Positions 6,626 through 23,117 of a DNA stretch of 24,181 nt are shown here, piece by piece. The position numbers and the translations under genes were made by a program. Positions within the stretch are counted from its first letter, which is position 1. Each line of letters starts with the position of its first letter. The stretch lies in the IMG/VR virus record IMGVR_UViG_3300025280_003577, positions 1-24,181 of that record; one strand, written 5' to 3'. The stretch is from a virus. The notes under the pieces are model-generated. The model ran no database searches. It was given only the letters and a program-made list of their open reading frames with translations, and was not told the origin of the DNA.

Positions 6626-6641
6626 AGCTTTTCTCCCTTCC

Positions 6642-8285: not shown

Positions 8286-8755
8286 CAATGCACCGTGTGT
8301 GAGTCTTCCTCTTCAATAACAGGGGGAAGTTCGTTCTGCAAAGCTAGCAAGACCTTATCAATTTCACTGTCAAGGTTCACATTCAGTGTGTCACCATAGT
8401 CCTGCCGACGCCGACGAGACAGCCACCACTTAGCAGCCTGCCAGTCATATTCGCGTTTCGTTTCTACTGTTGTAATGATATCACCATTTGGCCGTGTGAC
8501 GGTTTTCTCCACCGTCACATCATGACCGAAAGCTGCTTTCACAATGACGGAAGTGTAACGTGATTCTGCTATGTTCTCGGCTTCCATCACTTGTGTGGCA
8601 AAATTGGCCTTCTTATTGATCCAGTCATAAATGACATCTTGAGACACACCTGCATACGCAGCCGCCGCGCGTCGAGTCATCCCGGACTTGAGACCTTCCA
8701 TAATCTTTCCTATCCGATCAGGTGTATATTTCCCTTTCCGTCCTCGTTCCGCCAT
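8285..8755 (-). CDS. terS: Terminase small subunit
   Basis: A 156-residue DNA-binding packaging subunit. Residues about 8-52 form a helix-turn-helix: YTPDRIGKIMEGLKSGMTRR, AAAYAGVS, and IYDWINKK, typical of the phage terS DNA-binding domain. A central segment with VTVEKTVTRPNGDI and KREYDWQAAKWWLSRR (about 100-120) is also characteristic of this group. The C-terminus is acidic and likely contacts TerL. AAGGA lies ten bases upstream of the ATG. A 10-bp perfect inverted repeat just upstream (8773-8801) may be an operator or packaging element. Confidence 0.88.
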   Translation of the reverse strand: MAERGRKGKYTPDRIGKIMEGLKSGMTRRAAAAYAGVSQDVIYDWINKKANFATQVMEAENIAESRYTSVIVKAAFGHDVTVEKTVTRPNGDIITTVETKREYDWQAAKWWLSRRRRQDYGDTLNVNLDSEIDKVLLALQNELPPVIEEEDSHTVH

Positions 8756-8772
8756 GTATTATCCTTATATCG

Positions 8773-8801
8773 GACAGGGTACTCTAAAATCGTACCCTGT
8801 C
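8773..8801. promoter_or_regulatory. 10-bp perfect inverted repeat upstream of terS
   Basis: GACAGGGTAC (8773-8782) and GTACCCTGTC (8792-8801) are separated by nine A/T-rich bases. The size fits a dimeric repressor operator or a transcript hairpin. It lies 18 bases before the terS start and just after the 25-residue gene. No T-run follows, so an operator is slightly favoured over a terminator. Confidence 0.5.
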
Positions 8802-8807
8802 ACTGAC

Positions 8808-8885
8808 TTACAACACGCCGCTAGTAAAAGATGATCCGCCCCCGCGGCCTCCACGTTTGATCTGCATCTGTTTGTGTTTCTTCAT
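8808..8885 (-). CDS. 25-residue basic, glycine-rich microprotein
   Basis: The protein has an N-terminal basic part (MKKHKQMQIKR), a glycine-rich GGRGGGSS turn and a short hydrophobic end. It is too short for standard gene prediction. The ribosome site GGGAGGTGA, about seven bases before the ATG, is one of the strongest in the window and matches the spacing of its neighbours, which is the main reason to call it. It sits between the DUF4417 gene and terS. I do not recognise a family. The basic, flexible composition would suit nucleic-acid binding, but that is speculation. Confidence 0.55.
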   Translation of the reverse strand: MKKHKQMQIKRGGRGGGSSFTSGVL

Positions 8886-8904
8886 ATGCACTCACCTCCC
8901 TTCT

Positions 8905-9450
8905 TCATTTTACAGATTTATCCGCTCTCAATCTTACACGTCTGCGCACCGTTGTCCAAGACTCCAACCACACCACTTCGGTCTCCGTCAAATGAGGCTC
9001 TAACCACGTTCGATGATCGGCCCCGCCGTATATCACTAATTTTTCGGGTTGTGTCTGCCGGATGCCTTCACATATTCCCTCTAAATATAACCCTTGATTT
9101 TCTTTACTCTTAATAGAGCGGCACTCCACAGCGACTACAGGCGCATGTTGCGGAATACCTGTGAATACCCATTCATATGTCCGGGCATCCGACCATCTCA
9201 GGATCGGAATAATATCCAGCCCTGCCTCTTGCCAAAATCGCGCACACCACCGTGACCGATAGTGATTATACATTTGAATCACCAACGGCCAATTGCGCCA
9301 CAATGAGAAATCTGCGCGGCAAGACCGCACCCCATCCAAATCGCGCAAGCTTATTAAGGATATCTGCTGCTTCGGTCCAGGCCGTGGTAAATCGTCCATC
9401 GTCCACAAAGAATCCCAACACACCGCCCTTTGCTTCCGGGGGAAACGCAT
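8905..9450 (-). CDS. DUF4417 domain, downstream part of a frameshifted ParB-N/DUF4417 gene
   Basis: From about 9335 leftward this frame reads DGVRSCRADFSLWRNWPL, QMYNHYRSRWCARFWQ and IIPILRWSD, then EKLVIYGG. This is the core of DUF4417, a phage/mobile-element family of unknown function. The start of that domain (FFVDDGRFTTAW and LNKLARF) is encoded in the other frame, at the end of the 9266-10141 gene. Skipping one G at about 9333-9339 joins LNKLARF directly to DGVRSCRADFS, as the family requires. The 15-40 residues at the N-terminus of this frame are therefore probably not translated. The 45 bases to the left hold only the next gene's ribosome site. Confidence 0.65.
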   Translation of the reverse strand: MRFPRKQRAVCWDSLWTMDDLPRPGPKQQISLISLRDLDGVRSCRADFSLWRNWPLVIQMYNHYRSRWCARFWQEAGLDIIPILRWSDARTYEWVFTGIPQHAPVVAVECRSIKSKENQGLYLEGICEGIRQTQPEKLVIYGGADHRTWLEPHLTETEVVWLESWTTVRRRVRLRADKSVK

Positions 9451-10141
9451 TTGTGCCCCACAAAAACAACGTGTCAGCGCTATCCAGTATCGGCTGCTTG
9501 GCCCAAATAAGATGGGGTGTTAAAGAACTGAGACGATCTGCACGTATATCAGGAATATCCCAGGGATTGGTACCTGGAAACATTACATCACTTCGGAAAG
9601 CATGAATGCTACTAATTGCTTCGGGGTCATCCTCGGGCGCGTGGACAACGGCCTCTTTTTCTTCGGCTGCCTTTCGGTCTGCCACCTCAGAAACGATCCG
9701 TTCCCCCTCCAAATTTTGGACAAGACGATCCACTTCCTGCATATCCCACCCCAACCCATCCAAACTGTCATCCATAGCAAGTCCCTGTAGGGTCTCGCTC
9801 AGAACAGCGTCGTTCCACCCGCCTTTTTCAACGGCGCGGTTCAACACAAGCGCCGCTTCTTCTTCTTCTGCTTCCGGAATCTGAACATAATCAACAGGCA
9901 CCAACCATTCTTTTTTGGAGACGGTGATCCCTTCTGGCGGGGACAATCCTTGTTCAAATCGGGTCCGTAAGGAATCCGCACGGCCGTGACCAGATAATAC
10001 ATGGCCCGTAATTTCGTTGACCACAATCCGCTCAATGAATCCAAAACGCTCCACCGAAGACTGTATCAAATCTATATCGTGCAACTTGGCATTGTTAGTC
10101 AGTACTTGGATTTTTGACAGCGCAATATTGTCCGGACGCAT
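9266..10141 (-). CDS. ParB N-terminal-like domain fused to start of DUF4417
   Basis: Residues about 6-60 carry a ParB/sulfiredoxin-like fold: IALSKIQVLTNNAKLHD, then FGFIERIVVNE, then GHVLSGHGRADSLR. The G-H-G-R-x-x-S/A-L motif is typical of ParB-like nucleotide-binding domains in phages. An acidic linker (about 150-185) follows, then NPWDIPDIRADRLSSL and GVLGFFVDDGRFTTAW, the N-terminal part of DUF4417. The last 25 residues, after LNKLARFG, do not fit the family and result from a one-base shift relative to the frame 8905-9450. Either the gene is broken, the assembly has an extra G, or a +1 shift is made during translation. AGGA lies nine bases upstream of the ATG. ParB-like proteins beside DNA methyltransferases, as here, are common in phages. 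Confidence 0.7.
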   Translation of the reverse strand: MRPDNIALSKIQVLTNNAKLHDIDLIQSSVERFGFIERIVVNEITGHVLSGHGRADSLRTRFEQGLSPPEGITVSKKEWLVPVDYVQIPEAEEEEAALVLNRAVEKGGWNDAVLSETLQGLAMDDSLDGLGWDMQEVDRLVQNLEGERIVSEVADRKAAEEKEAVVHAPEDDPEAISSIHAFRSDVMFPGTNPWDIPDIRADRLSSLTPHLIWAKQPILDSADTLFLWGTNAFPPEAKGGVLGFFVDDGRFTTAWTEAADILNKLARFGWGAVLPRRFLIVAQLAVGDSNV

Positions 10142-10186
10142 TATTTAATCCTAACAAAAGAAATTATTTCACACATGTCGTCTTCA

Positions 10187-10296
10187 TTTGAAGGCTGGTA
10201 TGATGCACGCTATTAGCGTTCCGTTCTGAGGAAGAGAAAGAGAATACCCGAAACGTGCTCACCACATAAATAGCGTGCATCATGTCAGCCTTCAAA
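10187..10296. repeat. 28-bp inverted repeat (long stem-loop)
   Basis: The gap 10142-10367 contains arms 10187-10214 and 10269-10296, which match at 26 of 28 positions with a 54-base loop. The two differing positions become G-U pairs on a plus-strand RNA and mismatches on a minus-strand RNA. The rest of the gap shows nothing further that I can name. Confidence 0.7.
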
Positions 10297-10367
10297 CAAG
10301 GGGATGGGGACACCAAACGGAACGCTGCCCCCAGTATATGTGTATCGAGTGTTGTCTTTTGTAATAT

Positions 10368-10580
10368 TCACGCTGAACTCCTTTTCATCAGACCCTCAAT
10401 GTCGCGCAATAACTCACAAAATTCAATACGCCAGTGTTTTTTTACACGCTTATCTTGAGATTTTCGTCTCCGGCGACAGATCCGACATTCTCGTGTGAAT
10501 CGAACACGAGATAACCTCCAGAATATGTTTTCTTCTACCTTCGGATGCCCACACACAAAGAAAGGAGACGGTCGCTGCAT
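10368..10580 (-). CDS. Small zinc-finger protein
   Basis: A 70-residue basic protein with C-x-H (10-12) and C-x-x-C (32-35) separated by 19 residues: CGHPKVEEN, then RFTRECRICRRRRK. This is the pattern of small phage zinc-finger proteins that bind nucleic acid or accompany HNH-type genes; no HNH catalytic motif is present. I chose ATG 10580 because GGAGGTG lies directly upstream and the start is one base past the stop of the MazG-like gene. An open frame extends 25 codons upstream but overlaps that gene. The function is not known. Confidence 0.6.
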   Translation of the reverse strand: MQRPSPFFVCGHPKVEENIFWRLSRVRFTRECRICRRRRKSQDKRVKKHWRIEFCELLRDIEGLMKRSSA

Positions 10581-10581
10581 A

Positions 10582-10890
10582 TCACCTCCATCTTCTTTGT
10601 GACACGTCCTGCCACGTCGTTTCAAGAATATTTTCCAGGTCCCATCCATATGCATTACACAACCCCATCAGAAAAACGATGGTGTCGCCGATCGCGTCCC
10701 GCGCCTCATCTGGGAACACCTCATCATCTAAATTTTTTCCCCGTATCCCTTGATGCCCTTTCAGAAATGCGTGGCATAGCTCTCCGAGTTCTTCCTGAGC
10801 ACCAACCAAACACTCCCACGGCTCCCACCCTGGAAAGTTTTGATCTTGCCATTTTTTATGGTCCGCTTGTATTTGACGTAGATCAATCAT
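10582..10890 (-). CDS. MazG-like nucleotide pyrophosphohydrolase
   Basis: The 102 residues match the all-alpha NTP pyrophosphohydrolase fold. The first metal motif is EELGEL (33-38) and the second region is DEARDAIGDTIVFLMGLC (61-78), with Asp in the family's D-A-x-G-D variant. WEPWECLVGAQEELGEL and the C-terminal LENILETTWQDVSQRRW are also typical. Phage MazG proteins hydrolyse NTPs or dNTPs, or lower alarmone levels; which substrate applies here cannot be read from sequence. The start overlaps the methyltransferase stop by four bases (ATGA), so the two are coupled. Confidence 0.82.
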   Translation of the reverse strand: MIDLRQIQADHKKWQDQNFPGWEPWECLVGAQEELGELCHAFLKGHQGIRGKNLDDEVFPDEARDAIGDTIVFLMGLCNAYGWDLENILETTWQDVSQRRWR

Positions 10891-11882
10891 GCCACATCTT
10901 CCTCTGTATTCAGATCAGAAAACAGTAGCTGTCCACTGGGTAGAACTTCCGTCTGTTGGGAGTGCAATAACGCCAAGTTCTGACAGGATTGTCGATAATA
11001 CGTCGGTTTTAATTCAACTCCCACCGATCGACGTTGCTGTGATACAGCAGAATAGACCTCTGACCCTACCCCCATAAAAGGAGTCAACACAATCTCGCCA
11101 GGATTCGACCACAGCGTCAGACAACGATCGATTACATCCAGTTGCAGAGGATGGACATGCTTTTCATCTTCCTCCTCCTTGGATGCCTTATACGGAAGTA
11201 CTCGATGCAGCCGTACATCATCCCAGAACGCGGACGCATACTGTCTCCAAATCCAATGTGAGAACTTGTTTTCAATTTGATTTCCTGTCCATCCACGATA
11301 CTCCAGAACAGACGACGGAGGTTGTCGTTCTCCCGCATATTCAGTCAGCCCCTCGGGATGACTAATCGGAATAGGATTCTTTCCCTTCCGTCGAAACACA
11401 CACAGATAATCTGCGGACGCCACGCTACACCGCGAGGAATCATCCACAATGGTCTTATGGGCCAGGTTCTTCGCCATGGTTCGATTGCGCACGGCCAACG
11501 GCTCTTTCCAGATGGCATACCGACCTGTGTACTGAAACCCGATTTTCTCATGCAATCGAATCACATCTCCGGGGAAGTCCACCAAATGGTCGCATCCCGA
11601 GTTCCCAGAAGGCACGTCCATACAATGGACCGCCGTAATACGTCCGGGCATTGTCAACCGATATAATTCTTGCACCACAAAAGCATAGTGCTCAAAAAAT
11701 TCCTCGTAACTCCGGGCATTGGACAGGTCTCGATCAGACGAAGAGTAGTGATATAGTCCTGCAAAAGGCGGACTATAGACAGATAGATGGATGCTTTCTG
11801 CTGGTAACGTCGGCATGACCTCGCAGCAGTCCCCATTATAAATGGCATACCGATCCGTGATTTTTTGTTCTATGACAGCCAT
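10887..11882 (-). CDS. DNA methyltransferase (N4-cytosine or N6-adenine, beta-type order)
   Basis: A 331-residue AdoMet-dependent DNA methylase. The catalytic motif SPPF is at 37-40, after NGDCCEVM. The AdoMet-binding motif, PFMGVGSEVYSAV followed by SVGVELKPTYY, lies near the C-terminus, so the catalytic region precedes the AdoMet region, as in the beta class. SPPF occurs in both N4-cytosine and some N6-adenine enzymes, so the target base is uncertain. No restriction endonuclease is seen beside it, so it is an orphan methylase, perhaps for self-protection. Its start lies 13 bases inside the end of the helicase gene. Whether it acts on the GTC-rich arrays is untested. Confidence 0.88.
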   Translation of the reverse strand: MAVIEQKITDRYAIYNGDCCEVMPTLPAESIHLSVYSPPFAGLYHYSSSDRDLSNARSYEEFFEHYAFVVQELYRLTMPGRITAVHCMDVPSGNSGCDHLVDFPGDVIRLHEKIGFQYTGRYAIWKEPLAVRNRTMAKNLAHKTIVDDSSRCSVASADYLCVFRRKGKNPIPISHPEGLTEYAGERQPPSSVLEYRGWTGNQIENKFSHWIWRQYASAFWDDVRLHRVLPYKASKEEEDEKHVHPLQLDVIDRCLTLWSNPGEIVLTPFMGVGSEVYSAVSQQRRSVGVELKPTYYRQSCQNLALLHSQQTEVLPSGQLLFSDLNTEEDVA

Positions 11883-13270
11883 GATGGATTCTCCTCTGGG
11901 ACGGTAAAAGATGAGACAGGTTCAATAATCAGTTCGTGACTCATATTGTCCACTAAAGACGCAAACATGCGATCAGCTGCTCCCTGCTTCCGCTGCAAAT
12001 TCTGGAGAACATCACGTTCTCCTTCTGTCGTCACGATATCCACCGTCACAGATTGTGTCTGCCCATACCGCCAACAGCGGCGAATGGACTGATAATATTG
12101 TTCAAAGGAATGACTGGGAAATGTCACGACATGAGCGCAGTGCTGCCAGTTGAGTCCCCAAGCACCAATTTTTGGCTTGATGACAAGAACCCGCGCCTGT
12201 TCCGTCCGAAACGCATCAAATTTCTCCTCTTTCATTTCGTCCTTATCTTTCCCGCTGATCTGAATGGCATCAGTAATGAGTTTTTCTAATAAGTCTCCTT
12301 CAGCATTCAAATGACACCAGACCACAGCCGTCTTTCCATCATTGACCAAATCAGCGGCTTTTTCACATCGTTCCGATATAGTCAGGCGGCGTTCTTCGCG
12401 TTGCTCCCGAAGCCCAACAGAAGGCAGTGTAAACAACATGCCATCCCGCTGTTTCCGGTTTATGACCATGTGTTGTTGTTCTTTTAAAGGAGGCAAAAGA
12501 AACTCTGAATCTTCACATCCCATGTCAGATGGGGACCGAACGGCACGCGCCCACGAACACACCCATCGCCAAAAAGGTTCTTCTGCGTGTCCCTTAAAGC
12601 GCCACTGTTGCCCCTCAAACATACGCGGCGCAGCATGTCCGCGATAATGACCTTTTGTATCAATCGTATTTTGTTTGTTTTTAAAGAATCGAGTGAGCAT
12701 GTCCATATGGCCTAGATGCCCAAGTGCCTCACTGCTTGTTCCCAGCTCGACATAATCGTTAGGGGAGGGGGTAGCGGTACAGAGGAGTCGATACGGCAAC
12801 CGTCGCATAAACTCGGTAATCGCTGCACGTCTTATGCCGTCAAAGCTTTTTAATATCGCCGACTCATCACACACCAAACCAGAAAAATCGTCCGCCTGGA
12901 AATGATGAAGCTTCTCATAATTTGTTAGATTGATTCCCGGCTTGATCGTGCCATCTCTACTATGATGGCACTCTATACCAAATTTTTCCCCTTCTTGTAC
13001 GGTCTGCGGGCATACGGCCAAAGGAGCGAGTATGAGTACCGGCCGATTGGTATAGGCAACCACATTTTCTGCCCATACCAGTTGCATCACTGTTTTGCCT
13101 AATCCGGTGTTTGCAAAAATTGCCCCTCTCCCTTGTCTGATTGCCCACTCTGTCAGGAGTCGCTGAAAATCCTTTAGGTCAGAAGAGAGTGAAATAGGAA
13201 CAAAACCATCGCCTGTATTCTGGTGTCTCTTGGCCTCTAAAAAAGACTGATAGGAATAGGAATACGTCAT
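11870..13270 (-). CDS. SF2 (SNF2-like/DEAD) helicase
   Basis: A 466-residue helicase. Walker A is NTGLGKT (54-60), the DEAD-box variant is CDESAIL (134-140), motif III is CTATPSPNDY (about 164-173), and the C-terminal lobe has YQSIRRCWRYGQ (motif VI), all in normal order. I chose ATG 13270 because it overlaps the upstream stop as TGATG. An open frame continues 41 codons further but runs through the upstream gene. It is followed by the methyltransferase with a 13-base overlap. Phage helicases of this type act in replication or recombination. Linkage to a methylase also fits an anti-restriction role, which is an inference. Confidence 0.85.
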   Translation of the reverse strand: MTYSYSYQSFLEAKRHQNTGDGFVPISLSSDLKDFQRLLTEWAIRQGRGAIFANTGLGKTVMQLVWAENVVAYTNRPVLILAPLAVCPQTVQEGEKFGIECHHSRDGTIKPGINLTNYEKLHHFQADDFSGLVCDESAILKSFDGIRRAAITEFMRRLPYRLLCTATPSPNDYVELGTSSEALGHLGHMDMLTRFFKNKQNTIDTKGHYRGHAAPRMFEGQQWRFKGHAEEPFWRWVCSWARAVRSPSDMGCEDSEFLLPPLKEQQHMVINRKQRDGMLFTLPSVGLREQREERRLTISERCEKAADLVNDGKTAVVWCHLNAEGDLLEKLITDAIQISGKDKDEMKEEKFDAFRTEQARVLVIKPKIGAWGLNWQHCAHVVTFPSHSFEQYYQSIRRCWRYGQTQSVTVDIVTTEGERDVLQNLQRKQGAADRMFASLVDNMSHELIIEPVSSFTVPEENPSWLS

Positions 13271-13482
13271 CACGTCAAATCCGTATGCTGAGGATATAAT
13301 TCTTGAGCGTACGAGCGCGCCTCTTTGTAGGTAGAAAAGGTCCCTGCCTGGTGGGGCTTGTCCTCCCCCTGGGTGCAGGCAGCGAGGAACCACGGGGCGT
13401 TAGGGAGAGGAGGTTGTATAATGCGATACCAATTTTCGATGCCTTGCTTTTTTTGCCGTGGGGAAAAAGACGGGACTTTCAT
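13270..13482 (-). CDS. Small protein of unknown function
   Basis: A 70-residue soluble protein, aromatic and Pro-rich in the middle (WYRIIQPPLPNAPWFLAA), followed by TFSTYKEARSYAQELY. No family recognised. AAGGAG lies seven bases before the ATG. The leader matches that of the gene at 13550-13861 over about 55 bases, including the 23-base hairpin at 13521-13543. The TGA stop overlaps the helicase ATG. Confidence 0.65.
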   Translation of the reverse strand: MKVPSFSPRQKKQGIENWYRIIQPPLPNAPWFLAACTQGEDKPHQAGTFSTYKEARSYAQELYPQHTDLT

Positions 13483-13520
13483 GGTGTTTCTCCTTTTTTT
13501 AGTTAGAGGTTAACTCAGGC

Positions 13521-13543
13521 CAGCCTGCCCAGTGGACAGACTG
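13521..13543 (-). other. RNA hairpin in leader (copy 1 of 2)
   Basis: On the minus strand, CAGTCTGTCC and GGGCAGGCTG form a complete 10-pair stem (two G-U pairs) around an ACT loop. On the plus strand two positions do not pair. The same-sized hairpin with different bases occurs at 13900-13922. Both are followed by nearly the same sequence, GCCTGAGT, CTCTAACTAA and an AAGGAGAAAC ribosome site. Confidence 0.6.
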
Positions 13544-13549
13544 AATGAA

Positions 13550-13861
13550 TTATTTTCGGATCAGATAGCCGCCTGCGGTCGGAGTGACATTTGTGGGGAC
13601 AGGAAACTGGCCGAGGCTGTTGCCACAGAGGCATGTTTCACTACCACAAAGTTGGTCGTGGGTTTTCTTGGCCTGGGACTCAGTGACGAGTAAATCTGGT
13701 CCAGATACAAGCGTCTTGATAGTACAAGACGTGCCATGGAAACTGTTTGTGACAGTGATTTTTTCAAATAGATTAGCACGCTTGCTTCGTGACCTGGGGG
13801 CCTTCTTTCCTGGGATAAAGCCGTCAGTCAATTTTATTTTGCCTTCGTGTCGTTTCATCAT
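13550..13861 (-). CDS. Small protein of unknown function with C-terminal cysteines
   Basis: A 103-residue protein with a basic N-terminal third (KKAPRSRSKR) and a cysteine-rich segment, CGSETCLCGNSLGQ, near residue 78. No family recognised. The start at 13861 (ATGATG) follows AAGGAG by seven bases. An open frame 40 codons further upstream runs back through the hairpin and the end of the next gene and is not believed. Its stop is six bases from hairpin 13521-13543. Confidence 0.6.
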   Translation of the reverse strand: MMKRHEGKIKLTDGFIPGKKAPRSRSKRANLFEKITVTNSFHGTSCTIKTLVSGPDLLVTESQAKKTHDQLCGSETCLCGNSLGQFPVPTNVTPTAGGYLIRK

Positions 13862-13899
13862 GGGGTTTCTCCTTTTCTTAGTTAGAGGGTGACTCAGGC

Positions 13900-13922
13900 C
13901 AGCCCCCTCTATGAGGGGGCTG
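13900..13922 (-). other. RNA hairpin in leader (copy 2 of 2)
   Basis: CAGCCCCCTC and GAGGGGGCTG form a perfect 10-pair stem with an ATA loop. It stands 38 bases before the ATG of the 13550-13861 gene and ten bases after the stop of 13933-14058. No T-run follows, so it resembles an RNA-processing or stability element more than a terminator. Confidence 0.6.
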
Positions 13923-13932
13923 AGTGAGTCGC

Positions 13933-14058
13933 CTAGACAGTTTTGATGCGGGCGTGTGTGAGGTCTGTGGAGTAGAGCCACTGACTACCGATTTCTCGGG
14001 CGGTGCCTCGGTCATCCGCGTAGATGGCTGTTATTTCCTGGGCGTATTTTTTCGTCAT
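13933..14058 (-). CDS. 41-residue protein of unknown function
   Basis: The reading begins MTKKYAQEITAIYADDRGT and ends with HARIKTV before TAG. AAAGGAGATC stands five bases before the ATG. The size is below many gene-finding cut-offs, but ribosome site, spacing (11 bases after the neighbour) and amino-acid composition are those of a real small phage gene. No family recognised. Confidence 0.55.
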   Translation of the reverse strand: MTKKYAQEITAIYADDRGTAREIGSQWLYSTDLTHARIKTV

Positions 14059-14069
14059 TGTGATCTCCT

Positions 14070-14279
14070 TTACAAAAGGACTATTTTCAAGGCATTTCGC
14101 TTAGCAAAGGCCGCTCGCTCGTCTATCATGGCGTCGAAGTCGACTTCATCGTCTGGATCGTATGCGCGTGTCCATATCACGCTGCCCCGTCCGAATGACT
14201 CAGTGGTCAACATCTCAACGATTTTGCCTGTGGTCTCGAAGTCGCTAGAATCGTGTCCGGCATGTGCTTTCGTGTGCAT
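14070..14279 (-). CDS. Small acidic protein, first gene of the leftward operon
   Basis: A 69-residue protein beginning MHTKAHAGHDSS, then ETTGKIVEMLTTE and an acidic stretch DPDDEVDFDAMIDERAAFAK. I chose ATG 14279 because AAGGAG lies six bases upstream. It is the first gene after the strong promoter at 14324-14352, with an untranslated leader of about 36 bases. No family recognised. First genes after a divergent control region are often regulators or host take-over proteins, but nothing in the sequence decides this. Confidence 0.6.
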   Translation of the reverse strand: MHTKAHAGHDSSDFETTGKIVEMLTTESFGRGSVIWTRAYDPDDEVDFDAMIDERAAFAKRNALKIVLL

Positions 14280-14323
14280 GTGTTTCTCCTTGGTTTGTTT
14301 TCTTTTTCCTACCCTCTGAAACA

Positions 14324-14352
14324 ATATTAGCCGATTCTTTTCCCAATGTCAA
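14324..14352 (-). promoter_or_regulatory. Strong sigma70-like promoter, leftward
   Basis: On the minus strand this reads TTGACA (14347-14352), 17 bases, TAATAT (14324-14329). The -35 box is perfect and the -10 close to consensus, with A-tracts immediately upstream in the UP-element position. It would drive the leftward operon from 14279, starting transcription near 14316. Confidence 0.75.
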
Positions 14353-14353
14353 G

Positions 14354-14402
14354 CTTTTTTTTGTTACAGAACTCTTTTTTTTGTTACAGAAACTCTTTTT
14401 TT
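14354..14402. repeat. In-phase A/T-tract direct repeats between divergent promoters
   Basis: Runs of 8, 8 and 7 T start at 14355, 14375 and 14396, each of the first two followed by GTTACAGAA. The spacing of 20 and 21 bases is two helical turns, so the tracts lie on one face of the DNA and should bend it. They lie upstream of both divergent promoters. Confidence 0.7.
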
Positions 14403-14403
14403 G

Positions 14404-14432
14404 TTGACTGGCACTGATTTTAAGGCTATTTT
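14404..14432 (+). promoter_or_regulatory. Sigma70-like promoter, rightward, for a leaderless mRNA
   Basis: TTGACT (14404-14409), 17 bases, TATTTT (14427-14432). The ATG of the next gene begins six bases after the -10 box, so transcription would start at or next to the ATG. No ribosome site is present. Confidence 0.6.
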
Positions 14433-14438
14433 CACCGT

Positions 14439-14636
14439 ATGGATGAGAAACCTTCTGTTCTAGGAGAAAAGCGGACACGTCAAGTGACGGTGACCATCGT
14501 AGAGACCGTGCATCAGTGTGCCTGGTGTACGGAGCTGTTTTGGGCTAAAAATAAGAATCGGCATACCTGCTCAGGCCGGTGTCGTCTGCAGCTGTACCGA
14601 AAGGGGGGCGGTGTCCATGGCGCGCGTCACAGATGA
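14439..14636 (+). CDS. Small zinc-finger protein on the plus strand
   Basis: A 65-residue protein. Residues about 27-50 read CAWCTELFWAKNKNRHTCSG followed by RCRLQLYRK. This is two Cys pairs (CxxC and C-x3-C) with the TCSGRCR ending typical of small zinc-knuckle proteins. It is transcribed away from the main operon, from a promoter that gives no leader. That arrangement is familiar for phage repressor or control genes, so a regulatory role is plausible but not shown. It overlaps the next gene by 20 bases. Confidence 0.65.
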   Translation: MDEKPSVLGEKRTRQVTVTIVETVHQCAWCTELFWAKNKNRHTCSGRCRLQLYRKGGGVHGARHR

Positions 14637-14793
14637 CATACCTGATCCAAAGAATGCCAACCTCGGCACCGAGCGCGGGCGAGGCATGTTGGGCCACTCT
14701 TTGCGCGCTTATGGGGCAGGACGATCTATTTTGGTTGATCAGGATAACGTCACTAGTGGATGTAATTGCAGAGCTGCCAGAGGTTACGCTTAA
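14617..14793 (+). CDS. Short ParB-N-like protein, probably truncated
   Basis: The 58 residues contain NANLGTERGRGMLGHSLRAY and GAGRSILVDQDN. This is the opening of a ParB-like domain common in phages and mobile elements (TERG, SLR and GAGRSILVD are hallmark words). The family normally continues with a G-N-K-T type segment and another 100 or more residues. Here it ends after NVTSGCNCRAARGYA at TAA. It may be a remnant or a mini-version. It is convergent with the endolysin gene, 14 bases away. Confidence 0.55.
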   Translation: MARVTDDIPDPKNANLGTERGRGMLGHSLRAYGAGRSILVDQDNVTSGCNCRAARGYA

Positions 14794-14807
14794 TATTCTC
14801 TTTCACT

Positions 14808-15329
14808 CTACGAGATCCAGGTCATAGCTGCTTTTCTGACGGCGCGGATGCGAGTAGACCACCCCCGCCCGAAAACCGGCCAGAGCGTACCCTGCCGCGC
14901 TCGCTTAAGAAAATCAAGTCGCTCCTCACACATGGACGTGACTACGTCCGAGGCGCGTGCCCGTGCAGCTGCACGCAGGGTACGCGGCCCAATTTTTCCA
15001 TCCTGCGTAGCACCCAGCACTTTTTGCAGCCAACGGGCAGATCTTCCAGGCCCAGAATTAACGGCCTGATCAAAAACAATCAGATCAATCCCGGTCGGCA
15101 AGCGGTCACAAGCACACACCTCCCAGTATCGTTTACGATAGATACGGGCAACGGCTCCCGGTGAGATGTTTCTCAGATCGTCTTTTGTCCGAGTACGCCC
15201 ACAGGCACGTCGAAAGGTGCGCAGTGTAATCCCCTTATTTGTCGCGCCTCCAGGATCAGCAGGATGATCGACATACCCCCCTTCGTACCTGAGAATCTTT
15301 TTCAATGCCTCTGCAAAATTGTGTTCCAT
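14808..15329 (-). CDS. Endolysin, GH108-type N-acetylmuramidase with PG-binding domain
   Basis: A 173-residue enzyme that cuts peptidoglycan at host lysis. EGGYVDHPADPGGATNKGIT (16-35) is the catalytic signature of glycoside hydrolase family 108, with Glu16 the expected acid. WEVCACDRLPTGIDLIVFDQAVNSG (about 69-93) matches the family, and the second half (ARWLQKVLGATQDGKIGPRT) is the peptidoglycan-binding part. There is no signal peptide, so export would need a holin. AAAGGAGAGGAGC precedes the ATG. It is the last gene of the lysis-type cluster and is convergent with the plus-strand genes. Confidence 0.9.
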   Translation of the reverse strand: MEHNFAEALKKILRYEGGYVDHPADPGGATNKGITLRTFRRACGRTRTKDDLRNISPGAVARIYRKRYWEVCACDRLPTGIDLIVFDQAVNSGPGRSARWLQKVLGATQDGKIGPRTLRAAARARASDVVTSMCEERLDFLKRARQGTLWPVFGRGWSTRIRAVRKAAMTWIS

Positions 15330-15379
15330 GCTCCTCTCCTTTCTACCTCAAGAGGCACCCCACCACGGTATATAATTTT

Positions 15380-15676
15380 CTATGGCTCCGTTCCTATCGT
15401 ATCCGTCCGAATAAATGCCTTTGCCCGAGCGCAGTCAATGCGCAGAAAACGACCATCAGCCTCTCTATGCTCCCGATAGGTAAGACGTGCTAGCTCGGGC
15501 AAGGTGCAATAATAATCCTGCAACGCGCGTTCATAGGCAGCAAGACGGTCGAGGCTTCGTGTCGCCATATCAACTGCAAGATGTCCCGTTTTTGTGAGAG
15601 GGACACAACTCCCAGAGATGCTAGCAGCGTATGCTAGTCCTACGACTGCGGCCCCTATAGTAAAAGATAGTCGCAT
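15380..15676 (-). CDS. Secreted or lipoprotein candidate, spanin-like position
   Basis: A 98-residue protein with an N-terminal hydrophobic segment, IGAAVVGLAYAASIS, followed by GSC at 22-24. The cysteine would suit a lipoprotein, but the preceding residues fit the lipobox poorly, so ordinary signal-peptide cleavage is equally possible. The rest is helical with two Cys (YYCTLPELARLTY and RIDCARAK). Position directly upstream of the endolysin suggests an outer spanin or similar lysis role, which is an inference. AAGGAGTG precedes the ATG by six bases. Confidence 0.6.
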   Translation of the reverse strand: MRLSFTIGAAVVGLAYAASISGSCVPLTKTGHLAVDMATRSLDRLAAYERALQDYYCTLPELARLTYREHREADGRFLRIDCARAKAFIRTDTIGTEP

Positions 15677-15699
15677 AATTCACTCCTTGGTCTCTTCTT

Positions 15700-16008
15700 T
15701 TACCCTTTGCGTGTTCGGGCGGGGCACTGTAAAGACTGAACCAGCGACTGAGTTGCTCGGCTCATTTTCGTCTTAGTCGGCTCAAAATCTAGACCTTTCA
15801 TGCCTAGTTTCTTTATGCCTACAACCCGCTGCTGTTCTATCAAAATTAAACTAATTGCCTCGGCAAAATCTGTTGTCAGGCTCGCTATCGTATGAAGAGA
15901 ATCCTGATAGTGAAGTGTTTCTATCCTATAGTCCACTAACACCCCCCGGATACGGGCAACGAGGAGGGCATGGCCTGTATCTTCTGAAGACACATCTGAT
16001 CGACGCAT
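15700..16008 (-). CDS. Small protein of unknown function
   Basis: A 102-residue protein, mostly helical, with a central SLTTDFAEAISLILIEQQ segment and a basic C-terminus (CPARTRKG). No family recognised. Its ribosome site AGGAGGGG is strong, and the start lies 73 bases inside the preceding gene, a long overlap. It is 23 bases from the next gene. Confidence 0.6.
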   Translation of the reverse strand: MRRSDVSSEDTGHALLVARIRGVLVDYRIETLHYQDSLHTIASLTTDFAEAISLILIEQQRVVGIKKLGMKGLDFEPTKTKMSRATQSLVQSLQCPARTRKG

Positions 16009-16310
16009 GAGTCCCCTCCTAAAAGCATCCGGCGTGCATACGAGGAATCAACATGCAGCATTAAGCAGATCCATTCAAAGCTGAAGGGCATATCCTTTGT
16101 GCTTTTAAACCACAGATGAGCTTCCTCTTGCTCATCTGTATAGCGCGATATGGTTGCCTTTGCCACATTCTGAGGACAAGGCCGAAAATAGGCCCGGTAT
16201 GCGTTCTCAAGAACAGCCCAGGCAAGTCTTTGCTCGCCTGTCAAAACCCTATTTTGCAGGATCTCTTTCATCGTATGTGAAATCTCTGGAATCTTCATTT
16301 TGGACCCCAT
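15936..16310 (-). CDS. Phage protein with PFSFEWIC motif, possible DNA-binding
   Basis: A 124-residue protein. The order LTGEQRLAWAVLENAYRAYF, then AHLWFKSTKDMPFSFEWICL, then VDSSYARRMLL matches a phage family I know by pattern, where a tryptophan-rich PFSF-x-W-x-C segment precedes a short helix-turn-helix-like end. The role is unknown, perhaps transcriptional. The C-terminal 25 residues after RRMLL overlap the next gene's ribosome site and start and look less conserved. MGSK at 16310 or the internal Met four codons on could be the start; neither has a clear ribosome site. Confidence 0.6.
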   Translation of the reverse strand: MGSKMKIPEISHTMKEILQNRVLTGEQRLAWAVLENAYRAYFRPCPQNVAKATISRYTDEQEEAHLWFKSTKDMPFSFEWICLMLHVDSSYARRMLLGGDSCVDQMCLQKIQAMPSSLPVSGGC

Positions 16311-16353
16311 CCCTGCTTGCCTGCTCCTGTAATGCGAGCAGTTTATCAGATTG

Positions 16354-16677
16354 TTATTCTCCTCTCACATACAAAACACTCATCTGAGTAGTCAGCACCC
16401 GGAATGCTCGGGTATCAATAGTCGGATCTGTTCGAGCCGCTACAAGTTTATTATCCAGCACCCGCGCTTTTTGCCATCGGGGGTCGTCGGCATCACACCA
16501 CTCCGCATCCTGCTCCGCATATTTCCCGAGATCCTCCGCCATTCTGGCATAGGCGGCTTCTTTTTGTTGTGTCGGGGTCACTGTAATTTCCCTCCTATAC
16601 ATGCCTCGAAAAAAAACTACGATGCAAGTAGCAATGGCAATACCTATGATCGTTTCTATGTCAACTTTAAAATCCAT
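16354..16677 (-). CDS. Single-pass membrane protein
   Basis: A 107-residue protein with one hydrophobic segment (IIGIAIATCIVVFF, about 10-23) followed by basic residues RGMYRR and a soluble helical C-terminus. One transmembrane helix near the N-terminus and a position in the lysis-type cluster would suit a holin-like or inner-spanin-like protein. The basic residues after the helix suggest the C-terminus is cytoplasmic, which argues against a spanin. TAAGGA, overlapping the helicase stop, serves as ribosome site. Confidence 0.6.
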   Translation of the reverse strand: MDFKVDIETIIGIAIATCIVVFFRGMYRREITVTPTQQKEAAYARMAEDLGKYAEQDAEWCDADDPRWQKARVLDNKLVAARTDPTIDTRAFRVLTTQMSVLYVRGE

Positions 16678-16689
16678 ACTAGGTAATCC

Positions 16690-18342
16690 TTACCAGGCTA
16701 CCGCCTGGTGAGAGCCACCGCCCCCTAAGAAAAGATGTTCCTTCGCCCGAGAAACGGCGACATAAAACTGGCGTAGGACAGTGTCATGGCTTTTTATGGA
16801 GCCCGTCCAAGACTCCCACCCGCTATACGACAGATCAGGAAAGACGTAGACCCAATCGGCCTCTCCTCCTTTCACCGAGTGAATCGTGCCGATAGTGGGT
16901 ACACCCGGGGCGGGACGGTTCTCTGGGACCTTCCACCCGTGTATACCGCTCTTTTGATGAACACGTGCGAAATAGTCGATCCGTGCTTGGTGAGAATCTA
17001 GAGCATGGTCTAAGAGCCAGACTAAGTCCCCATTCAAAAGAGGCTCCAGTGCTGCGGGATCACACAGGGACGCAATATAATCAAGCGGCAAGTCTTCTGT
17101 CGTGGTAGGAGGGGTATCCGTCTTGAGCCGTGCTTTTGTATTTCGTTGGAAGACGCCTTTTACCTGGACAAGAGAAGCCCATCGACGCAACTCATCCCAA
17201 GTCCACGTCAACCGACCTGTTTCGTCCTCGTGAGGCGCGCGGAAAGAGACTAAGCGATCTACTGTAGCGATACCCCTACTAGGACGTGATAGCGGATTCC
17301 AACGGGCTTTTGTCGGGCGGTACGCGTTGGCAAAGGCAATGCCTTCCTCTCTAAATCGCTTGATAAGCGGGTCGAGTTGGTAGCCACATGCGGCCAGGAT
17401 CATCAATGATTTACGCTGTTTCTCGGCCTGTTCGTGTAGAGATAAAAGTTCGTGAGGGGCGTGCCAGTTGCATGACTGCTGCGAGACCTCACCCTCCCCT
17501 CGCCCTTTATACGGAGCATACGGCTTCTCAATGCGATCAGAAATGAGATGGACCCAGGCTTGACAGTGCGTATGAATTTGAGGAGGCAGTCGGTACGATT
17601 GATCCAGGATACGGCATTCACGAGGCGTCTGGTTTATCAGGCTCTCAGGGTCGGCACCCCTCCACTGGTAGAGGCACTGATCTTCATCCCCACAAATCAA
17701 GACAAAATCTGCATATTGCCCCATCTTAGAGACGACCGAAAACTCCAGCTTTGAAAAATCTTGAGCCTCATCCACCATCAACAAACTCGCTCCAAACGGC
17801 ATCCCTTCGTAGTCCAAATACCACCGCTCGATCATGTCGGTAAAATCAATCAGGCCGTTTTCTCTTTTCCACTCTTCCCACAGATGAGCAAACGCAAGGA
17901 CACTTTCTGTCCACGCTCCTCGGGGGATCATCTGATGCCGGTTCAGATCATACTGATCGAGCAGGTCATCACCCTTGCCCCCGCTACTGCGCTCAATCGA
18001 CACCTCCTCATCGTCTTCTGGCGAACGAATCCGCGTACTGACTGCCATCTCCCAGCCTGGATTATCCGCGTTCCACTCTGCGATATGCCCATTCACCAAC
18101 TCAGGCCGCCCCATTTCCCGATAGCAGATGGCGTGCAAGGTGCCGACATGATCGCGCACGACAGGCAGTCCACGAGAGGCGAGTTCATTTGCGGCTGCAT
18201 TGGTCATGCTCACAATGACAAGCGCATCATTCCGCTGATATCTGCGGACTGCCTTACGGGCAGACTCCACCAGGGCAGTCGTTTTTCCACACCCAGGCGG
18301 CCCCATCATCAACACGACATTTGACTCTTGATCCAGCTGCAT
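16690..18342 (-). CDS. UvrD/Rep-like SF1 helicase
   Basis: A 550-residue 3'-5' type DNA helicase. Walker A is GPPGCGKT (14-21), the early motif VSMTNAAANEL is at about 43-53, motif II is DEAQDF (190-195), motif III QCLYQWRGAD (221-230), motif V TIHSVKGGEAD (near 500) and motif VI AVSRAKEHL (near 535). It is compact compared with the roughly 720 residues of UvrD, as is common in phages. AAGGGG precedes the ATG. A possible promoter lies within the repeat region just upstream. Its place beside a primase-like gene points to phage replication. Confidence 0.92.
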   Translation of the reverse strand: MQLDQESNVVLMMGPPGCGKTTALVESARKAVRRYQRNDALVIVSMTNAAANELASRGLPVVRDHVGTLHAICYREMGRPELVNGHIAEWNADNPGWEMAVSTRIRSPEDDEEVSIERSSGGKGDDLLDQYDLNRHQMIPRGAWTESVLAFAHLWEEWKRENGLIDFTDMIERWYLDYEGMPFGASLLMVDEAQDFSKLEFSVVSKMGQYADFVLICGDEDQCLYQWRGADPESLINQTPRECRILDQSYRLPPQIHTHCQAWVHLISDRIEKPYAPYKGRGEGEVSQQSCNWHAPHELLSLHEQAEKQRKSLMILAACGYQLDPLIKRFREEGIAFANAYRPTKARWNPLSRPSRGIATVDRLVSFRAPHEDETGRLTWTWDELRRWASLVQVKGVFQRNTKARLKTDTPPTTTEDLPLDYIASLCDPAALEPLLNGDLVWLLDHALDSHQARIDYFARVHQKSGIHGWKVPENRPAPGVPTIGTIHSVKGGEADWVYVFPDLSYSGWESWTGSIKSHDTVLRQFYVAVSRAKEHLFLGGGGSHQAVAW

Positions 18343-18369
18343 ATGTGCCCCTTCTCTTCTATGACGTAC

Positions 18370-18398
18370 CTATAAATTAGGCACGACAGATGTAACAA
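18370..18398 (-). promoter_or_regulatory. Possible promoter for the UvrD-like helicase
   Basis: On the minus strand this reads TTGTTA (18393-18398), 17 bases, TTATAG (18370-18375). It lies inside copy 1 of the 58-bp direct repeat. Both boxes are partial matches. Confidence 0.35.
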
Positions 18399-18442
18399 TG
18401 TCACACCAGTTCCCTGCCTTCGTGTGGCGCGTAATCCTCAAT
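18385..18442. repeat. 58-bp direct repeat, copy 1
   Basis: Matches 18504-18560 over its whole length except for one missing base (GTCACACC here, GTACACC there). Part of the 329-base gap 18343-18671 between the UvrD-like and primase-like genes. Confidence 0.75.
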
Positions 18443-18503
18443 TGTAAACCGTTTTTTCTCACTTTTTCTTGCATAATTGCGTGGTTTTCGCGCTAGTTGG
18501 TGT

Positions 18504-18560
18504 GACAGATGTAACAATGTACACCAGTTCCCTGCCTTCGTGTGGCGCGTAATCCTCAAT
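18504..18560. repeat. 58-bp direct repeat, copy 2
   Basis: Second copy, 57 bases. A shorter related stretch, ATGTCACACC with CACCAGTT, follows at about 18583-18605. The one-base deletion would break any reading frame, so the conserved unit is more likely DNA or RNA than protein. Confidence 0.75.
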
Positions 18561-18608
18561 AGAATCAAGCACTTAGAGGCAAATGTCACACCTGTGCACC
18601 AGTTTTTG

Positions 18609-18646
18609 AAGAAAAAAAAAGTTTTTTTTATTTTTTTTCTGTTTTT
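18609..18646. other. A/T-rich tract, origin candidate
   Basis: A run of A followed by long T-runs (T8, A, T8, CTG, T5) next to the two 58-bp direct repeats and between two replication genes. Repeats plus an easily melted tract are the usual parts of a phage origin. No DnaA box is evident to me. Confidence 0.4.
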
Positions 18647-18671
18647 GCCCCCTATGTAGTGTTGGTGTGCG

Positions 18672-20459
18672 TCAGTGGTACGTTTGTTCTGGCTTCGTTT
18701 CATCTTCTTTTCCTTCTGGCACGAGGGTCCCATCAAACGAAGTCAGCGGAATAACCCAGTACCGGACCCGTCTCCTTGTGCCCTGTTTACTCGACTGTCG
18801 AGCGCCATCGAGCTTCCGTACCTCTGCGCTCAGATCAGATCGTTTCCATTCTGGATCGAGCTTCTGGATGATCTGGCGGAGCCATTCAAAGGTCGTATAG
18901 TAGTGGCCTTCAAACACAAAAGCGTGCCCATTGTCGTAACTTTGGATGCACGATTCTCTTTTGGAGTGATGTGACGTGTTTCGGAGTGCAGCCACAAGGA
19001 TTGCTTGGAGGCGGGTGCCGTATGCCAGCTCCTCATATTCCTCCTCCTGGATAATCGCAAAGAGACGATTTAAGAGCCTAATCCATGTCGGTCGGGCAAC
19101 ACGTACAGGCTGCGTATTGATGTGGTGTACAACGAAGCCAAAGCGGGAAAAGACGTGCATGGTATCAAGGAGCTTCTCACCCTGAAATTTGACGAGCTGG
19201 GGACCGTCTGGAGTTTGAACCGTAAACTGATAACATCGTTCAGACCCGATCACGATCAAAGCAATGTGTATGACGCGGCATTCTTGGGTGTAGACGCTGC
19301 CTTCCTGAAGCCCGAGAAAGGACTCAATTTGAGCATACAGCTGGCTCGGGTCTTCTTCATCCGCGCTACGCCCTGATTCTTGCTCCTCCTGTGCCTGCTC
19401 AGCAAGTCTTTCTGAAGTATACGCTGTGACTACCGCCAACTCCTCTTCTTTGCGGGAAACGGCAAATATGGCCTTTTTTAGGGTGAATAGGTAATATGCT
19501 AGCCGATGTTCGTTTCTGTATTGCTTGCGAAACTCATACATAAGCGCGAGGGTATCTTCCGGCGACCATCCTCCGTACAGCGCTTGCAGGGCAATCGAAA
19601 AATCATATGCTGACTGGGACCCATCCCCCAGGTCTCGTCTACGTTTTTCCCAGGTCTTGGTGAATCGCGGGTCGAGATCAAGAATTTTGAATGCGTTCGG
19701 GCTCACATTTCCGCTGGAGAAAGTTAACCCTTGGATCTGCCCCTTGACCTTTTCGAGCGCCGACTCAGGAGCCGCATCTTTTACTGGAGGGAGGACATCT
19801 AAGAAATCGCCCAAACCAGCGTAGAGAGGCCCTGTTTCTATAATCGTACAGGGAACTGGGCTCGAGATTATTTTGTGGTTTCGTGAGCCTGGTAGGCGTA
19901 ATACTCGGCTTAAATCGTGCGTAGCATCTACGCTGTACTTGCCGATACGCCATGCTGCGGCTGCAAGAGCCGCATGGAGGCGCTTAGCCACGTCATGCGC
20001 TGCAAAACGATCTTCCGCGGACACAAGCAGCTCCGGCTCTTTTAGCGCCCATAGCGGCTGTAATCCATAGCCTGAGTGGATCAAATAAGATGGCTTCAGC
20101 TCGACCGCATCAATGATGCGTCGAGCTGTCTCAGTATCAGGAGGCAGGGTTTCATTTTTGTGGGCTTCTGGGTGGGCAATGTCCACGTCACCGTGGAGAA
20201 GCAATAAAGCCCTCACATCGGCTGATGCACCCCGCCAGCGGGGCCTTTGTTGACTTTGTCGTTCGCGAAGTCCTACTCCGTAATAGACATGCCAGGAGGA
20301 GTATTCCTTTACTATGGTCTGTGCCGCCTCCAGGTCATGGACAAAAAAACTACTGTGATCGGCCTTATTGTCAGGATTCAGGACCCAGAGCAGAAAATCC
20401 AGATCATCAGGTAGGGTGTCGAAAATAGGCTCTAAAAATGTGTATGTGGCATCAGACAT
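18672..20459 (-). CDS. Primase-polymerase-like replication protein
   Basis: A 595-residue protein. Its N-terminal part looks like an archaeo-eukaryotic/RepB-type primase. HGDVDIAHPEAH (89-100) supplies the two metal-binding Asp, LIHSGYGLQPLWAL (126-139) is the nucleotide-binding strand and turn, and DLSRVLRLPGSRNHK (about 187-201) is the third conserved block. A helical segment around 290-335 (YDFSIALQALYGGWSPEDTL) resembles primase C-terminal domains. The last 200 residues form a separate domain I do not recognise. No helicase Walker motif is present. AGGAGAGGGAG precedes the ATG. A GC-rich palindrome separates it from the upstream gene. Confidence 0.75.
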   Translation of the reverse strand: MSDATYTFLEPIFDTLPDDLDFLLWVLNPDNKADHSSFFVHDLEAAQTIVKEYSSWHVYYGVGLRERQSQQRPRWRGASADVRALLLLHGDVDIAHPEAHKNETLPPDTETARRIIDAVELKPSYLIHSGYGLQPLWALKEPELLVSAEDRFAAHDVAKRLHAALAAAAWRIGKYSVDATHDLSRVLRLPGSRNHKIISSPVPCTIIETGPLYAGLGDFLDVLPPVKDAAPESALEKVKGQIQGLTFSSGNVSPNAFKILDLDPRFTKTWEKRRRDLGDGSQSAYDFSIALQALYGGWSPEDTLALMYEFRKQYRNEHRLAYYLFTLKKAIFAVSRKEEELAVVTAYTSERLAEQAQEEQESGRSADEEDPSQLYAQIESFLGLQEGSVYTQECRVIHIALIVIGSERCYQFTVQTPDGPQLVKFQGEKLLDTMHVFSRFGFVVHHINTQPVRVARPTWIRLLNRLFAIIQEEEYEELAYGTRLQAILVAALRNTSHHSKRESCIQSYDNGHAFVFEGHYYTTFEWLRQIIQKLDPEWKRSDLSAEVRKLDGARQSSKQGTRRRVRYWVIPLTSFDGTLVPEGKEDETKPEQTYH

Positions 20460-20483
20460 CTCCCTCTCCTTCTCCTCACACCA

Positions 20484-20516
20484 AACTAAGGGGGGGGCCT
20501 AGGCCCCCCCTTAGTT
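20484..20516. terminator. GC-rich palindrome between two replication genes
   Basis: AACTAA, eight G and CCT face AGG, seven C and TTAGTT around the centre 20500/20501. The stem has about 16 pairs with one bulged G and almost no loop. There is no long T-run, so this is a terminator-like, processing or cruciform element rather than a standard intrinsic terminator. Confidence 0.5.
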
Positions 20517-20531
20517 ATCTTCTACTGGTGT

Positions 20532-21431
20532 TTAGTCTTCTTGAGAAGGAATACTCGTCTCCATATCTACGTCTTCAGACCAAGGATCGTCGAATCCTGT
20601 ATGATCAATGCCATTTGCAGTAGTATCGGAAGCCTGCAGCCCGAGCGCTTGTTCTTTTGCTTTTTGTGGATCGAAGCTCCGTAGTGGCCCCTCATGTGTG
20701 GGCTGCGCAGCTGTTACCTGCTTGACCGAAGCTGCCGCAATCATGGGGGAAAAAGATTTGGTGTACCTACGCAGCGATTCTCGGCTGTTTTCGTCCACCT
20801 TCCCTACGTACTGCAAAAGAATTTTGCTGTAGGTAATCCCGCTGTTGGACTTTTCTCGCTCCAGGCTAAAGGCAGTCACCACATCCGCGATTCTTAAGTT
20901 TTGTTCTGTCAAAGCCAGACGATAGCGGTTCATAGCACGAAGGGAGGTCGGCGGGAAATCGACAACGACGGGAAGTAAAGATGTTTCACGTAAAACAAAT
21001 ACCTTCCACTTTTCTTTACACGCCTTTCCTGCACCAGCAGATCCCCAGGCATTAAAGGGACACAAGTCACAGAGTCCGCCTGGAGCCCCTACGCCGGTCT
21101 CAAGGTCCGGCGATTGACAGTCTGGAGGAGCGCTGCCGTCTCCATCGTCAAGCCCCTGTGCCCAGTAAGAGCGGCTTTTTTGGATGCCCACGATAACGCC
21201 CTGAATGGTGGAATCGTACTCTTGTCCATCGAGAGTCGGGATTTCCCATTGCTGCGCCCCCCCTGATGGGACCTTGATGGTCGTAAGACTGAACACATCC
21301 AGTTTCTCTCCGCCGAAGTTATCAGTAAACAGCTCTGCTATTTCCTGGGCGGGGGTAGAAACAGCCACATAGGAAGAAAGGTCTACAGACGAAATCGCCA
21401 CGGCTCTTGTCTCTGTTTTTGCTTTTGTCAT
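20532..21431 (-). CDS. Putative ssDNA-binding-like replication accessory protein
   Basis: A 299-residue protein with a Cys cluster (GLCDLCPFNAWGSAGAGKAC), then VFVLRETSLLPVVVDFPPTS, LRAMNRYRLAL, VVTAFSLEREKSNSGITYSK and an acidic C-terminus ending EDVDMETSIPSQED. The C-x-x-CP-x-N-x-W-GS plus T-S-L-R and V-T pattern is a phage family found beside replication genes. The acidic tail is like that of single-strand DNA-binding proteins. The functional label is an inference from tail and position. I chose ATG 21431 for the AAGGAGC nine bases upstream. The RHH gene ends four bases before this start. Confidence 0.5.
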   Translation of the reverse strand: MTKAKTETRAVAISSVDLSSYVAVSTPAQEIAELFTDNFGGEKLDVFSLTTIKVPSGGAQQWEIPTLDGQEYDSTIQGVIVGIQKSRSYWAQGLDDGDGSAPPDCQSPDLETGVGAPGGLCDLCPFNAWGSAGAGKACKEKWKVFVLRETSLLPVVVDFPPTSLRAMNRYRLALTEQNLRIADVVTAFSLEREKSNSGITYSKILLQYVGKVDENSRESLRRYTKSFSPMIAAASVKQVTAAQPTHEGPLRSFDPQKAKEQALGLQASDTTANGIDHTGFDDPWSEDVDMETSIPSQED

Positions 21432-21435
21432 TGTT

Positions 21436-21636: not shown

Positions 21637-21641
21637 ATGCT

Positions 21642-21671
21642 ATATTATGCATAAGAATGAATAAAATGCAA
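21642..21671 (-). promoter_or_regulatory. Promoter for the replication operon, leaderless arrangement
   Basis: On the minus strand this reads TTGCAT (21666-21671), 18 bases, TAATAT (21642-21647), then AGCAT and the ATG. The start codon would be at or next to the transcription start. Confidence 0.5.
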
Positions 21672-21700
21672 CCTCCCCTCCCCCTGAATCGGTGTTTTCT

Positions 21701-23116: not shown

Positions 23117-23117
23117 T

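Follow-up and report, generated by a model that had tools for sequence, protein, structure and literature searches.

A tandem array of phased A-tracts upstream of an operon promoter in an unclassified phage as a candidate UP-like element

The stretch of DNA analysed here (the window) is the IMG/VR virus record IMGVR_UViG_3300025280_003577, which comprises 24,181 bases of an unclassified phage. The recognised genes for head morphogenesis, portal, terminases, nuclease and methylase are all located on the minus strand, together with those for SNF2-like helicases, an endolysin, a UvrD-like helicase and a primase-like protein, and the helicase and primase-like replication genes occupy 16.7-23.5 kb. 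The exceptions on the plus strand are two small ORFs at 14439-14636 and 14617-14793, which are parted by a T-rich divergent spacer of 159 bp (14280-14438) from the first ORF of the minus operon, whose ATG is at 14279. The phage is represented by three records, namely the window and two sister contigs, both of which are identical to the window over 14200-14850. Where it overlaps the window, one sister contig shows a one-base insertion at 18520, while the other differs at two bases (12925-12926) and lacks 13 bases at 14965-14977. This gap lies in the endolysin gene of 3300025270_002069 and breaks its frame, and it is either a real variant or an assembly fault.

Several other features of the window were recorded. 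A KdsA-like KDO-8-phosphate synthase and a KdsD/GutQ-like SIS-domain isomerase, the match of the latter falling under curated cut-offs, are encoded among the structural genes (3605-4384 and 5909-6655, minus strand). These genes suggest a Gram-negative host and altered LPS, and KdsA has been reported in a marine virus (PMC5332604). Arrays built on a 5-bp GTCNN step were found between structural genes at 1349-1877 and 3398-3515. The GC skew of the plus strand was negative in 22 of 24 one-kb windows; it was about zero in 14001-15000 and reached +0.12 in 13001-14000, even though it is the minus strand that carries the accepted small ORFs of that interval. In the same part of the minus strand, two leaders (13479-13556 and 13858-13935) contain the same two-part hairpin of 18 pairs, and each is followed immediately by AAAGGAG and the ATG of a small ORF; of these ORFs, the one at 13861 has a negative codon score. 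The folding z values of these leaders were -3.7 and -5.4, and 97% of cells were paired with 4 pairs changed on both sides, which was equalled by 32 of 500 shuffles, while slid versions of the pair gave at most 47% pairing and 1 two-sided change. No third full copy was present in the window (next different site, E 0.61), and no copy was detected in the 25 loci searched. In layout, the leaders are similar to the start-associated sequences of cluster K mycobacteriophages, which contain inverted repeats (PMC3203893).

A previous reading of this DNA from its letters alone (the sequence-only reading) had proposed that two good sigma70-like promoters face away from each other across the spacer. The positions and the orientation were confirmed, and the minus promoter is indeed good (10/12), but the plus promoter is modest (9/12). 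On the operon side, the promoter scan and the sequence revealed a -35 hexamer, TTGACA (14347-14352, minus strand), and a -10 hexamer, TAATAT (14324-14329, minus strand), separated by a 17-bp spacer. Only one additional distinct site in the window, at 9292, scored at least 10/12. We consider the site on the operon side a putative near-consensus sigma70-type promoter that would belong to the control region of the minus operon, with transcription predicted to start at A14317, the seventh base after the -10 hexamer. A Shine-Dalgarno sequence, AAGGAG (14286-14291, minus strand), precedes the first operon ORF (14070-14279, minus strand, 69 aa), with six bases between it and the ATG, and the codon score of this ORF was 4.7 in its own frame and negative in the other five. 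No family match above cut-off was obtained for this ORF in Pfam, PHROGs or NCBIfam. A comparison with solved structures matched 11 sequences, the best being a WD-40 entry (5.9e-10), and these matches were set aside, as no single stretch passed alone.

On the opposite side, the plus promoter consists of a -35 hexamer, TTGACT (14404-14409), and a -10 hexamer, TATTTT (14427-14432), also with a 17-bp spacer. The -10 ends six bases before the ATG at 14439, and A14439, the seventh base past this hexamer, is both the likely transcription start and the first base of the ATG. Because sites of 9/12 are only of chance-level quality across the window (9 + 13 found versus 11.7 + 10.4 expected), the case for this promoter rests on its position. 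Among start codons opening at least 50 codons, the -10 of such a promoter match with 5-8 bases in between was found for 2 of 241 on the plus strand, the other being at 15305, and for 0 of 453 on the minus strand. Between 13000 and 15600, 7 promoter matches of 9/12 were observed versus 2.3 expected.

If the plus promoter is real, the 65-aa ORF at 14439-14636 is leaderless by its sequence, as had been suggested, and it contains a CxxC and a CxxxC pair; the zinc-finger part of that suggestion found no counterpart in any recognised DNA-binding zinc-finger family. The codon score of this ORF was small and positive (2.8 over 65 codons), with negative values in the other frames. Its matches were weak, comprising phrog_3794 (0.0036, unknown function), Ribosomal_S27 (0.0065) and NCBIfam S27ae (0.015), the latter two below their cut-offs; no DNA-binding family and no Pfam or NCBIfam match above cut-off was obtained, and no solved relative was found. 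The structure model from the single sequence was poor (pLDDT 61), and a search of the phage collection at E values up to 10 returned 52 records, the best of which (0.4) was annotated as an HNH endonuclease gene. The second plus-strand ORF (14617-14793, 58 aa) overlaps the first and is the truncated start of a ParB-like protein. Its codon score was 2.0 and fell to 0.1 when the overlap was left out. Six IMG/VR loci, of which five closely resemble one another, match residues 3-43 (or 3-42) of its 58 at 63%, and matches of up to 57% were also found to annotated phage DNA methylase and ParB-like genes. The ParB-like relatives in the IMG/VR loci continue for hundreds of residues, while the 58-aa ORF, truncated relative to them, stops at 14793 and leaves 14 bases to the convergent endolysin ORF (14808-15329, minus strand; glycosyl hydrolase 108 by family match). 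Elsewhere, a CxxC protein near ParB genes was seen in 1 of the 5 loci checked (L130), two genes upstream. The plus unit is probably a remnant, a status that is weakened by the open frame and the small positive codon score of the 65-aa ORF. Alternatively, it may be a small functional unit whose transcript would run into the endolysin gene as antisense. The pattern scan listed no plus-strand terminator between 14793 and 15329, but merely a weak site inside the 65-aa ORF.

The spacer itself contains three T runs (14355-14362, 14375-14382 and 14396-14402), whose centres are 20 and 20.5 bp apart. These are the three A/T tracts with a spacing of 20-21 bp that the sequence-only reading had reported, and its picture of divergent promoters across an in-phase A/T array, flanked by a small leaderless ORF and, at the opposite end, by a long operon, agrees with the sequence. 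One correction is needed: the tracts are not isolated, but are parts of a tandem direct repeat. Viewed from the minus strand, unit 1 (14354-14373) contains an A8 tract centred at -41.5 from the predicted minus start; unit 2 (14374-14394), the first 18 bp of which are the same as in unit 1, contains an A8 tract centred at -61.5; and the degenerate unit 3 (14395-14415) contains an A7 tract centred at -82 and carries, in its diverged part, the -35 hexamer of the plus promoter. The extent of unit 3 to 14415 is our own reading, as the array delimited by Tandem Repeats Finder (period 20, 2.4 copies, score 91) stops at 14402. The 18-mer at 14354 and 14374 had no additional match within 3 mismatches (0.03 expected), and TTGTTACAGAA, which follows the tract, is identical in two units. 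The motif CTTTTTTTTGTTACAG was found in 37 stretches of IMG/VR, and two copies were present only in the two sister contigs; by our estimate, the remaining occurrences are roughly as many as a 16-mer should have by chance in a collection of this kind. A further motif, TTGTTACA, had four copies in the window, two of them here and two upstream of the uvrD-like gene (0.61 expected; 0 of 100 shuffles). We did not build on this excess, as each pair sits in a duplication and the four copies were therefore counted as two occurrences.

The strength of the clustering depended on the background with which it was compared. A 60-bp span with three runs of length 7 or above occurred in none of 200 dinucleotide shuffles of the entire window, and in 48 of 2000 shuffles of the T-rich 159-bp stretch alone. 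The real window has two such clusters, the second of which is near 18612-18638. The length-weighted phasing score in 100-bp windows, which reflects run length as well as phase, peaked at the divergent spacer (28.4 versus a maximum of 18.5 in 100 shuffles), and the second-highest value (25.3) was near 18601, upstream of the uvrD-like gene. The spacer before that gene (18343-18671) combines its A-tract cluster and high phasing score with duplicated blocks of 40 and 17 bp that are 118-119 bp apart. For the three tracts of the divergent spacer, the phasor was 0.99, 0.99 and 0.93 for periods of 10, 10.25 and 10.5, and 0.69 for a period of 11.

UP elements and upstream phased A-tracts are reportedly bound by the alpha-CTD of RNA polymerase, and the tract centres at -41.5, -61.5 and -82 coincide with the places where the alpha-CTD reads such sequences. 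Relative to the predicted start, the tracts upstream of the minus -35 thus occupy these positions on one helical face. In addition, the run beside the -35 has the strand orientation that a proximal UP subsite of the minus promoter should have, and the opposite one for the plus promoter; of the 8 positions of the proximal subsite consensus, the minus promoter matched 7 and the plus promoter 0. Since the tract centres fit the alpha-CTD positions and the strand is the one expected for the minus promoter, we favour the reading, with a probability of roughly 0.5, that the three helically phased tracts form an UP-like array boosting the operon promoter, although use of the tracts by the alpha-CTD is predicted from sequence. 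Some observations count against it. The full UP consensus specifies 14 positions, of which only 8 fit the minus promoter; a comparable cluster arises in the local shuffles at the frequency given above; and an UP element alone does not explain why TTGTTACAGAA was kept after the tract in two units.

The array could be compared only within the phage itself, and no relative close enough for a comparison of 14280-14438 was found in the IMG/VR, genome and phage-collection scans. The IMG/VR protein scans, which depend on exact short peptides and detect only close relatives, returned only one or both sister contigs for the 65-aa protein, the first operon ORF, the UvrD-like protein, the primase-like protein and a 318-aa protein, while the scan with the SNF2-like helicase gave 80 of the 597 confirmed loci, among the matches listed. 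In a comparison of 16 window proteins with the loci, in which the ParB fragment was off frame and loci matching only the ParB-like query were left out, the adjacent methylase was matched outside the sister contigs, and one locus (L006) also matched the endolysin weakly (E 0.007), both among the matches listed. Genome scans with the 65-aa protein and the terminase revealed no relative, and the phage collection held no near nucleotide match to 8000-24181. Distant relatives of the terminase amounted to 344 records (best 46%), and those of the primase-like protein to 139 records, 0 of which covered 80%.

The array and its two promoters can also be explained in other ways. A phage protein, the 65-aa protein or another, might bind the direct repeats and switch the divergent promoters in the manner of phi29 p4 or the lambda-type repressors, and the leaderless small ORF beside the repeats, as well as the identity of TTGTTACAGAA in two units, would fit such an arrangement. 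Precedents are available in phage PY54, whose divergent cI and cro messages are leaderless and accompanied by an UP-like sequence (PMC4488713), and in phi29, in which p4 reads A-tracts at the A2c/A2b-A3 early-late switch (PMC3100819). The comparison of the layout with a lysis-lysogeny switch is not supported. No integrase or CI-like repressor was recognised among the 32 ORFs treated as genes (all compared with Pfam, with PHROGs or with the two together, a single ORF over part of its length) of a contig that may be incomplete, and no inverted repeat was found in 14250-14480 at an exact seed of 7 and a length of 10, settings that shorter half-sites could escape. An excisionase-like HTH protein is encoded at 23923-24135, and the ORF at 15380-15676 matched a recombination directionality factor very weakly (E 0.097). 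An early-late switch is not apparent either, because the replication genes are on the same strand as the operon and the divergence is therefore not one of early versus late genes. The further idea that a zinc finger takes the place of a classical repressor is not supported by the 65-aa protein, which matches no DNA-binding family and is poorly modelled; no HTH match was obtained for this ORF, the ParB fragment, the first operon ORF or the endolysin, and the plus unit consists only of a small ORF and a fragment. The phi29 p4 site pattern (inverted CTTTTT-15-AAAATG) was not detected in the repeats within 2 mismatches; its one match in the region (14302-14328, with 2 mismatches) overlaps the minus -10, and the window contained 8 matches versus 2.6 expected. 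The neighbouring genes match no repressor family and the repeats contain no p4-type site, which counts against membership in the lambda or p4 type, and a protein-operated switch appears rather doubtful.

The possibility of a tandem duplication by slippage in the T-rich spacer, with no specific function and only the core promoters of importance, is unlikely, yet it deserves slightly more credit. The 18 identical bases in two units suggest a recent duplication, other low-complexity repeats exist in the contig, the sister contigs show no variants at the array that could reveal constraint, and the local shuffles yield comparable clusters; however, the tracts fit the alpha-CTD sites of the minus promoter, and their phasing score exceeds those of all 100 shuffles. 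It seems improbable that the units serve as iterons in a replication origin adjoining A/T-rich DNA. A tandem arrangement of 20-21 bp units in a T-rich setting would suit an origin, as would the positive and near-zero skew on this side of 15 kb, but there are just 2.4 copies placed between two -35 boxes, the skew is negative again after 15 kb and makes no lasting switch, and the helicase and primase-like genes lie at 16.7-23.5 kb, with the other A-tract and repeat cluster at 18343-18671. A very improbable variant is that both promoters share the array, with two polymerases competing for the same alpha-CTD sites and the plus antisense acting as a protein-free lysis timer. From the plus start, the tract centres are at -40, -60.5 and -80.5, nearly the mirror image of the minus side, and the leaderless plus transcript could become endolysin antisense because the scan listed no plus-strand terminator up to the far end of the endolysin gene. 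If this were true, the choice of promoter would time lysis without any protein.

Under the favoured reading of an UP-like array serving the operon promoter, the array would have been born by tandem duplication of a 20-21 bp unit, and the outermost, diverged unit would supply the -35 of the weaker, back-facing plus promoter. The latter may produce a leaderless message for the 65-aa, probably zinc-binding protein and the truncated ParB-like fragment. We infer that the plus unit is most likely the stump of a plus-strand cassette, which would have been cut off when the endolysin side was acquired. The region would then be an ordinary kind of control region and is probably not a new zinc-finger switch. 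If this reading is right, the phage provides a natural case in which a compact UP array of tandem repeats serves an operon promoter and a diverged repeat unit gave rise to a back-facing promoter, and it cautions against taking every divergent phage promoter pair for an immunity switch.

Among known systems, phi29 also has phage promoters with A-tract-bearing sites nearby, but its p4 sites are inverted (PMC3100819), while those found here are direct repeats; no p4-like protein was recognised here, and the plus side, unlike that of phi29, carries only the 65-aa ORF and the fragment. With PY54 and lambda (PMC4488713), the locus shares divergent promoters, a leaderless message and an UP-like A/T sequence, whereas in the window no CI- or Cro-like gene or integrase was recognised and inverted repeats were not found. 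At Pr/Pc of pLS20, periodically spaced A/T tracts likewise accompany divergent promoters; their static bend sits between two operators of a known DNA-looping repressor (PMC4207663), and none is known here. We regard the resemblances to PY54, phi29 and pLS20 as likenesses of layout. In H. pylori, T- and A-tracts beside the -35, together with UP-like elements, set promoter output via polymerase binding (PMC4081817). As in UP-element and phased A-tract promoters of this type (Estrem 1998 and Aiyar 1998, both as cited in PMC4081817), for example that with the sabA T-tract of H. pylori (PMC4081817), the tracts of the phage begin just upstream of the -35 and, at about -41, -61 and -82, share one helical face. 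They differ from the known promoters of this kind in their two-turn spacing (20-21 bp), in their location within a tandem repeat and in the second promoter that faces away from the same array, from which the alpha-CTD would serve the operon promoter.
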